Shown here: piece by piece, positions 1 through 1,703 of the stretch
How positions within the stretch are numbered: the first letter of the stretch is position 1
Layout: the number at the start of each line of letters is the position of its first letter
Assembly (NCBI RefSeq): GCF_003431825.1
Contig: NZ_CP020083.1
Coordinates: 3,448,501-3,512,500, forward strand
Length of the DNA stretch: 64,000 nucleotides
DNA from: Blastomonas fulva
Lineage (GTDB): Bacteria; Pseudomonadota; Alphaproteobacteria; Sphingomonadales; Sphingomonadaceae
Direction: 5' to 3'
Position numbers and translations under genes: made by a program
Notes under the pieces: generated by a model
Told to the model about the DNA's origin: nothing
The model's database searches: none
Seen by the model: the letters and a program-made list of their open reading frames with translations, nothing else

Positions 1-1703
1 ACAGCTACCCACACTCGTGGCGCTCCAAGGCGCGGGTGATCTATCGCTGCACGCCGCAATGGTTCATCCCGATGGATCAACCCATAGAGCCCCTCCCCTT
101 CAGGGGAGGGGTTGGGGTGGGGAATGAAAATTCCATCGCTAATGACTCCCCCACCCCCAACCCCTCCCCTGAAGGGGAGGGGCTTAAGACACTCCGTGAA
201 ACCGCGATGCAGGCGATCACCGACACCCGCTGGGTCCCCGCCAAGGGCGAGAACCGTATCCGCTCGATGGTCGAGGGTCGCCCCGACTGGGTGATCAGCC
301 GCCAGCGCGCCTGGGGTGTGCCGATCACGCTGTTCGTCAATCGCAAGACCGGCCAGTATCTGAAAGACCCTGCGGTTAATGCGCGCATTGTCGCGGCGAT
401 GCGCGAGGCCGGTGTCGATGCGTGGAACGACGCGGCGGCCCCTGCCCTGCTCGGTCCCGATTACGACATCGCCGATTACGAGCGCGTCACCGACATTCTC
501 GACGTCTGGTTCGACAGCGGCTGCACGCATGCCTTCGTGCTCGAAAGCGGCAAATGGCCCGATCTGACCCGGCCCGAAGGCCATGTCGGCCCCTGGGCGG
601 ACCTGTATCTCGAAGGATCGGACCAGCATCGCGGCTGGTTCCAGTCCTCGCTGATGGAAAGCTGCGGCACGCGCGGCCATGCGCCGTACAAGGCGGTGCT
701 GACGCACGGCTTCACCATGGACGCCAAGGGCATGAAGATGTCCAAGTCGCTGGGTAACACCATCGATCCGCTGACGCTGATCAAGGATTCGGGCGCGGAC
801 ATCCTGCGGCTGTGGGCGCTGTCGGTCGATTTCACCGAGGACCACCGCATCGGCAAGGAAATCCTCGCGGGGGTCTCGGACCAGTACCGCAAACTGCGCA
901 ACACCTTCCGCTACCTGCTTGGCGCGCTTGCCGGGTTTGACGATAAGGCCGAGGGCGTGGCGGTCGAGGCCATGCCCGAGCTCGAACGCTATGTGCTGCA
1001 TCTGCTTGCCGAGCTTGATGCGAAGCTGCGCCAGGCTGTCGAGGACTTCGACTACAACACCTATGTCCGGACGCTGGCAGATTTCGCCAACAACGATCTG
1101 TCGGCGTTCTTCTTCGATATCCGCAAGGACTGCCTGTATTGCGACATCGGCCCCGCGCACCCGCACGGCACCGACAAGCGCCGCGCGTATCGGACGGTGC
1201 TCAACGTGCTGTTCGAGGCTTTGGTCCGCTATGCCGCGCCGGTGCTGGTGTTCACCGCCGAAGAGGTGTGGACGACGCGCTATCCCGATGCGGGCAGCGT
1301 GCATCTGCTGGAATGGCCTGTGCTGCCAACCCTCCCAGAGGACGGCGAACTCGTCATGCGTTGGGATCGCTTGCGCGATCTGCGTTTGAGCGTTTCCGCA
1401 GCGATCGAGCCATTCCGCAGGGACAAGATCATTCGATCAAGCCTCGAGGCCGAAGTGGCGATCAAGCTGAAGGACCCGTTTGCTGCTGCTTCAGCGTCTT
1501 CATTGGGCAAGGAAGAGTTCGAAGAACTGCTGATCGTCTCTTCTGCGCAGGTGACTGGCTTTGCAGATGACTCCGTCGCCGAAACCAAGGTTATCGAAGT
1601 CACCCGCACCACCAACCACAAATGCGGCCGCTGCTGGCGTCATCTTCCCGAGCTGACCGAGGACGGCAATCTGTGCGACCGTTGCACGGAGATGCTGGCG
1701 TGA
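1..1703 (+). CDS. ileS: Isoleucyl-tRNA synthetase, 3' part (5' end outside window)
   Basis: Class I aminoacyl-tRNA synthetase that charges tRNA-Ile in the cytoplasm. The reading frame is open from base 3, so the gene starts upstream of the window. Visible landmarks are the TPQWF segment, the RPDWVISRQRAWGVP block, DVWFDSG, YLEGSDQHRGWF, the KMSKS loop (bases about 736-750) and a C-terminal zinc finger with two CxxC pairs (CGRC and CDRC). Oddity: right after the WFIPMD segment the frame reads through a 93-bp palindromic repeat (90-182), adding 31 residues rich in Pro and Gly before the sequence returns to the normal LRETAMQAI family pattern. The insertion keeps the frame and lies in a linker, so the enzyme is presumably functional. 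Downstream is lspA, a common neighbour of ileS. Confidence 0.97.
   Translation, partial: SYPHSWRSKARVIYRCTPQWFIPMDQPIEPLPFRGGVGVGNENSIANDSPTPNPSPEGEGLKTLRETAMQAITDTRWVPAKGENRIRSMVEGRPDWVISRQRAWGVPITLFVNRKTGQYLKDPAVNARIVAAMREAGVDAWNDAAAPALLGPDYDIADYERVTDILDVWFDSGCTHAFVLESGKWPDLTRPEGHVGPWADLYLEGSDQHRGWFQSSLMESCGTRGHAPYKAVLTHGFTMDAKGMKMSKSLGNTIDPLTLIKDSGADILRLWALSVDFTEDHRIGKEILAGVSDQYRKLRNTFRYLLGALAGFDDKAEGVAVEAMPELERYVLHLLAELDAKLRQAVEDFDYNTYVRTLADFANNDLSAFFFDIRKDCLYCDIGPAHPHGTDKRRAYRTVLNVLFEALVRYAAPVLVFTAEEVWTTRYPDAGSVHLLEWPVLPTLPEDGELVMRWDRLRDLRLSVSAAIEPFRRDKIIRSSLEAEVAIKLKDPFAAASASSLGKEEFEELLIVSSAQVTGFADDSVAETKVIEVTRTTNHKCGRCWRHLPELTEDGNLCDRCTEMLA
90..182. repeat. Palindromic repeat element inserted in frame inside ileS
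   Basis: The left arm (90-122) is nearly identical to the reverse complement of the right arm (149-182); the only difference is one extra base. Each arm also contains its own small hairpin (CCCCTCCCCT-loop-AGGGGAGGGG type). Total length is 93 bp, exactly 31 codons, with no stop in the ileS frame. It resembles the GC-rich intergenic repeats common in sphingomonads and, by analogy, the Rickettsia palindromic elements found inside genes. Confidence 0.88.

Follow-up and report, generated by a model that had tools for sequence, protein, structure and literature searches.

The gene for isoleucyl-tRNA synthetase (IleRS), ileS, of Blastomonas fulva contains a palindromic element that is translated in frame as part of this essential enzyme. 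We describe it in a window of 64,000 nucleotides (contig NZ_CP020083.1, positions 3,448,501 to 3,512,500), to which the coordinates given below refer unless a locus or genome is named. The element stands in a linker that is short in some relatives and differently filled in others, and its arms match the inverted ends that bracket a gene for a DUF559 (Vsr-fold) nuclease elsewhere in the same genome; genes of this family are bracketed in a similar way throughout the genus. On balance, we consider it probable that the element is a pair of inverted repeats resembling repetitive extragenic palindromic (REP) sequences, which has no open reading frame (ORF) of its own, shares the ends of DUF559 cassettes, and has settled in a tolerant and recurrently used loop of IleRS. 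The finding is real and at its core of a known kind.

Structure of the element in ileS

The 3' part of ileS lies at positions 3 to 1703 on the plus strand (566 codons, the gene start being upstream of the window); in the whole genome the ORF comprises 1026 codons and stays open across the element, and the database copy of this IleRS (P0002) matched TIGR00392 above the cut-off of that model. The linker from WFIPMD to LRETA (78 to 191, plus strand) has 38 residues where three insert-free congeners have 8. Within it the element, delimited by an inverted-repeat scan and RNA folding, occupies positions 88 to 184 without an assigned strand and measures 97 nt: a left arm at 88 to 122 on the plus strand (hairpin core 90 to 111, G-rich tail 112 to 122), a spacer of 27 nt at 123 to 149 with no strand, and an inverted right arm at 150 to 184 on the minus strand, whose 33-mer (150 to 182) differs from the left 33-mer at 2 positions. 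The 35-nt arms, 27 nt apart, pair at 33 of 35 positions (94% complementary), and the RNA fold of the element reached -85 kcal/mol (z -10.8, with none of 200 dinucleotide shuffles as good). Each arm is itself a hairpin with a G-rich tail, the left-arm hairpin containing CCCCTCCCCTTCAGGGGAGGGG, and therefore the element consists of two inverted REP-like repeats. The left arm contains a putative G-quadruplex motif with four G runs of 4 nt each (103 to 122, plus strand), and a similar one lies at 148 to 169 on the minus strand. Rfam returned 48 matches, all under gathering scores and mostly to hairpin miRNA models. The GTAG tag is absent from the element ends and the neighbouring bases as read from the sequence, and the CGTC tag is absent from the element ends.

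The first-pass annotation of this DNA had proposed a palindromic element translated in frame inside ileS, located in the linker with family sequence resuming on both sides, and this was borne out by the open frame, the 33/35-pair repeat and the alignment with relatives, among which G006, G007 and G008 are insert-free with an 8-residue linker. It had also described a near-perfect inverted repeat of 93 bp: the inverted repeat is real, but it is 97 nt long with 33 of 35 arm positions paired. The claim that exactly 31 codons are added has to be corrected to a net gain of 30, because the linker has 38 residues here and 8 in the three congeners. The suggestion that genes tolerate such repeats as long as the frame is kept agrees with our data, since four of the six reading frames of the element, including the one used by ileS, are free of stops. 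An assembly slip is unlikely as the source of the insert, because a near-identical insert occupies the same IleRS place in the congener G002 and in P0003, from a separate contig of 832,812 bases. We found no point in support of an assembly error or of an untranslated intervening piece, and with the frame open throughout as well, this explanation is scarcely credible.

A second inverted repeat, with 31-nt arms that are 87% complementary, lies between ileS and lspA (1730 to 1820). The translation of this repeat type (AELVSA ... LKQVQGD) was found inside the IleRS linker of P0107 and, slightly changed, in that of P0058.

Recurrent use of the IleRS linker

Across nine Blastomonas genomes the linker is filled in four ways: by this element in G000 (the genome of the window) and G002, by other CCTCTCCC-type repeats in G001 and G005, by a non-palindromic sequence of 35 residues in G003 and G004, and by only 8 residues in G006, G007 and G008. 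Comparison with a solved IleRS structure (8c9e) indicates that the insert takes the place of a tight turn, because residues 483 and 521 of P0001, which end and begin the neighbouring aligned stretches, correspond to chain residues 414 and 415; the AlphaFold model of this IleRS was poor (predicted local distance difference test score 56) and was not used. The element-encoded residues probably form an inert surface loop. It could be argued that the insert is functional itself, the mRNA hairpin slowing translation or the peptide adding a function, and a hairpin of -85 kcal/mol within an essential gene would agree with this; yet three congeners lack the insert and the residues vary between elements at the same site, so that we regard a function of its own as very unlikely. 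In the C-terminal part of IleRS, an in-frame insert after LLEWP (VPCEGRGPSSDGQEMGPRLRGE; loci L033 and L035) is common to G004 and G005, which suggests a second insertion site in the enzyme.

The same linker holds unlike palindromes in many sphingomonads, a point that goes beyond the first-pass annotation. We sampled 149 evenly drawn Sphingomonadaceae genomes, found an ileS match in 145, read all 145 loci and parsed 141 linkers; three of the four unparsed linkers could be read later and were not palindromic, and one stops at a contig edge. Long inverted repeats (ungapped arm score of at least 12) were present in 26 of the 141 linkers, all among the 99 linkers of at least 20 residues, and 24 of the 141 outscored each of 60 dinucleotide-shuffled versions of their own sequence. 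Among control windows of equal length from the same loci, 12 of 1980 reached a score of 12 (maximum 25). On the basis of hand-made, hand-edited motifs, the linker repeats were classed as family A (CCTCCCC type), family B (CTTCGACAGGCTCAGG type), family C (TCTCGACTTCGCTCGA type), family D (CGTC-tagged), and families E and X (further CCTCCCC variants). Linkers labelled palindromic number 35, six of them by motif only (arm score below 12) and three drawn from six genus loci with which the sample was supplemented, and they form 11 DNA clusters, some of which mix phase or orientation. A set of 120 similar proteins was biased to query-like inserts because the query region includes the insert, and all counts come from the genome sample instead.

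On a tree of 150 linker-free IleRS backbones, parsimony requires at least 29 gain or loss changes of insert presence, and 32 when families are distinguished; this tree was a quick one, with support below 80 at 37 of 147 inner branches. The figure of 29 overstates independent insertions where ileS has recombined, as may be seen from G000 and G004, which are sisters on the backbone tree and yet have different linkers. We also compared 24 genomes from seven further families of the order: in all but G037 and G059 the IleRS match starts past the linker (query residue 63-64), which fits a short linker in those families. The family-wide reuse of one loop of an essential enzyme by unlike palindromes appears to be new. 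Non-palindromic linkers of about 25, 30 and 35 residues also recur across scattered genera (L030, L036, L089 and others) and may be decayed old inserts, or native linkers that spread via recombination.

DUF559 cassettes with matching ends

A search of the 4.12-Mb genome for further copies, as proposed in the first-pass annotation, found the whole unit only once, while its arms recur elsewhere. The best arm matches are two inverted copies 400 bases apart around a DUF559-family ORF, and no other near-identical arms were found in G000: the left-arm 33-mer (90 to 122) is exact at both ends of this cassette (G000:C1:2330365-2330797), so that the arms of the element are also cassette ends. The element scores 39 against DUF559 cassette L334, and the cassette gene product shows both a PF04480 match and a Vsr-type fold.

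DUF559 genes occur in all nine genus genomes, in 25 copies. At 24 of these, the flanking sequence up to 160 bp away contains an inverted repeat with a score of 17 to 96, the exception lying at a contig end; 400 random windows scored no higher than 14, and 46 shifted windows no higher than 11. In 20 further sphingomonad genomes, picked for palindrome-bearing IleRS, we obtained 86 DUF559 matches and read 30 loci, 27 of which have flanks scoring at least 16 inside 200 bp; 600 random windows did not exceed 14, nor 59 shifted windows 12. In Pseudomonadota at large, DUF559 was present in 37 of 120 genomes, and of 23 loci examined there 11 score at least 15, against a highest value of 13 among 46 shifted windows. 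Loci L391-L395, which are fragments or weak matches, were omitted from this scoring of DUF559 loci beyond the genus. When 2174 windows from 80 named loci were scanned, seven scored at least 15. The strongest was L093 (1000-1710), a DUF559 cassette of Sphingomonas sp. PAMC 26605 that lies immediately upstream of ileS and has exceptionally long inverted ends, with a score of 98; the second was L103. An inward-strand G-quadruplex motif was seen in both flanks of 31 of 51 DUF559 cassettes and in 1 of the 2174 control windows. PADLOC assigned no family to two DUF559 proteins.

Copies of the respective arms with at most 3 mismatches number 5 in G000, 48 in G062 and 57 in G035, and they are commoner in genomes with the cognate DUF559 (p = 0.0014, the cassette's own arms excluded, without phylogenetic correction). 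In subfamily A1, the arms are identical while the remainder of the cassette diverges.

The arrangement of two inverted REP-like arms (35 nt) around a short spacer (27 nt) is also that of a classical REPIN, a REP doublet mobilised by a REP-associated tyrosine transposase (RAYT) of the HUH type. PF01797 was however unmatched in seven of the nine genus genomes, including G000, which is 100% complete, the two existing PF01797 genes of the genus lack bracketing inverted repeats (scores 11 and 9), and the element ends bear no GTAG tag. We therefore consider mobilisation by a RAYT highly improbable and rejected it for this genome on its 0 matches to Y1_Tnp (PF01797).

GIY-YIG genes and other host genes

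At L103, a broken GIY-YIG nuclease gene lies between CCCCGGCTTTCGCCGGGG palindromes, and four further Sphingopyxis loci have a GIY-YIG gene at the equivalent place, bracketed likewise (score 16-25). A plasmid collection gave 34 records of GIY-YIG genes, of which 14 loci were read: nine stand between inverted CGTC-tagged palindromes (a single place seen in two Sphingobium strains accounts for two of them), one is bracketed by an untagged palindrome (score 16), and four by none. The controls for these small GIY-YIG loci were not clean, shifted windows reaching 38 in one set and 26 in another. By their tag, the two IleRS inserts of type D belong to the CGTC class. In Azospirillum lipoferum the gap between sufB and sufC holds a GIY-YIG gene, and Sphingomonas parapaucimobilis has a DUF559 gene there (L432, L436); both nuclease genes stand between inverted palindromes.

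DUF559 may be only a guest, its genes having entered existing palindrome pairs, or being held there otherwise, without mobilising them. This would agree with the mostly vertical inheritance that the cassettes seem to have, with the different nuclease genes hosted between sufB and sufC in two species, and with the mismatch-repair role proposed for Caulobacter VsrA, a DUF559 protein, in the part of the source available to us (PMC12907096). It is set against by the arm copy number, which tracks the cognate DUF559 even without the cassette's own arms, and by the A1 arms, which stay identical as the rest of the cassette diverges, and we think it rather unlikely.

Such elements are not confined to ileS. 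In G004 they lie in frame in glyS, ligA and uvrA, those of LigA and UvrA being one copy each in this one genome, and G008 has an element in a gene for a DinG-like helicase whose family matches fall under the curated cut-offs. At glyS site 1, five of the nine Blastomonas genomes are short and the other four carry three kinds of insert; at site 2, one kind of candidate element is found in four. Judged by these sequences, GlyRS-beta behaves like IleRS as a recurrent site.

The inserts in GlyRS-beta, LigA and UvrA would also be expected under pure tolerance, in which repeats land randomly everywhere and IleRS merely bears them, with no targeting of the site and no relevance of DUF559 to it. The use of the same IleRS site by families B, C and D, for which none of the DUF559 ends read gave a match, and the replacement of a tight turn point in the same direction; the tight bracketing of DUF559 genes and the identity of A1 arms are left unexplained. 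We give this explanation about an even chance, and it can hold for the site while a nuclease model holds for the movement.

Discussion

We picture the element as having settled in an IleRS loop that would tolerate extra residues and serve as a recurrent landing pad in sphingomonads, where it may survive since its net length change leaves the reading frame intact and stops are missing from most of its own frames. For the movement, our hypothesis is that nucleases mobilise the repeats: the Vsr-fold nuclease would recognise and nick or cut the arms, and repair or recombination would then copy arms elsewhere and swap repeats at one site. Put more broadly, as a tentative possibility that may well fail, REPs without RAYTs would each have a small endonuclease of homing type acting on them, with its gene between two copies of the repeat: a Vsr-fold DUF559 protein for the CCTCCCC class and a GIY-YIG protein for the CGTC class. 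Cutting of the palindromes, followed by repair, would spread them, keep the arms alike and swap repeats at tolerant loops of essential proteins such as IleRS. That palindromes without a RAYT are paired with small nuclease genes appears to be new; we found no report of DUF559 or GIY-YIG paired with palindromic repeats in the open-access literature, subscription papers and bioRxiv being outside the scope of the search.

Several observations weigh against a DUF559-linked origin of the element. Across the phylum, bracketing was seen in just about half of the sampled DUF559 genes, and G001, G112, G034 and G150 hold 5-10 arm copies without the cognate DUF559. In subfamilies other than A1, the arms are 84-100% identical and not always much above the flanks. 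Outer flanks are common to 45 of 60 close pairs, and because the cassettes thus mostly stay at conserved places, none was seen to hop; free hopping today was rejected accordingly. Among the 15 remaining pairs, eight include loci close to the end of a contig, L319 or L341, and seven are pairs of like cassettes that sit at different places. With 30 of 86 DUF559 matches read outside the genus, the cassette of the same genome was the best match (ties included) for only 3 of 14 A, E and X inserts, and families B, C and D matched no DUF559 end; on these copies we rejected both the own-genome cassette as the source of each IleRS insert and a DUF559 origin of families B, C and D. Lastly, no target-site duplication was evident on comparison with the 8-residue linkers of the congeners.

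In-gene palindromes have been known for some time. According to the sections available to us of Di Nocera et al. 2013 (PMC3733652), GTAG and CGTC REPs occur inside genes, including those of tRNA synthetases of E. litoralis and S. alaskensis, REP pairs lie within DNA ligase and uvrA, two Xanthomonas species have different REPs at about the same recB site, and CGTC-tagged REPs are described as being without a transposase. Our case shares with these the REP pairs inside tRNA synthetases, DNA ligase and uvrA, and differs in that the element of the window bears neither tag; measured against those sections, the repeated use of one site throughout a bacterial family and the pairing with nuclease genes are features of the present case. 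Enterobacterial in-gene repeats have also been reported (PMC2759123, consulted in part). The likeness to Rickettsia palindromic elements (RPEs), which the first-pass annotation had drawn, stands for behaviour, and behaviour is the sole basis of the comparison: RPEs are palindromic too and lie in frame within protein genes, at solvent-exposed places according to the available part of an R. japonica paper, which thought hotspot insertion possible (PMC3767692), and RPEs in genes have been reviewed (PMC10969869, in part). The present case differs in the bacteria concerned and in that several repeat families use one site. With the REPIN/RAYT system it has in common an inverted REP pair and a gene between the same repeats with apparently mostly vertical inheritance, whereas the bracketed gene encodes a DUF559 (Vsr-fold) nuclease and not a HUH transposase. 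Like miniature inverted-repeat transposable elements, as treated in the part of PMC10969869 we could consult, it is a short derivative with the ends of a longer gene-bearing unit, but unlike them it comes with no transposase and, for the window element, no evident target-site duplication.

An odd single insert thereby becomes a system that can be tested. In its loop, IleRS provides a natural insertion site that has been used repeatedly in an essential enzyme. What moves RAYT-less REPs is a question to which the pairing of untagged and CGTC-tagged palindromes with Vsr-fold and GIY-YIG genes suggests a candidate answer. A possible role would also emerge for DUF559, which Pfam still describes as a family of "unknown function".
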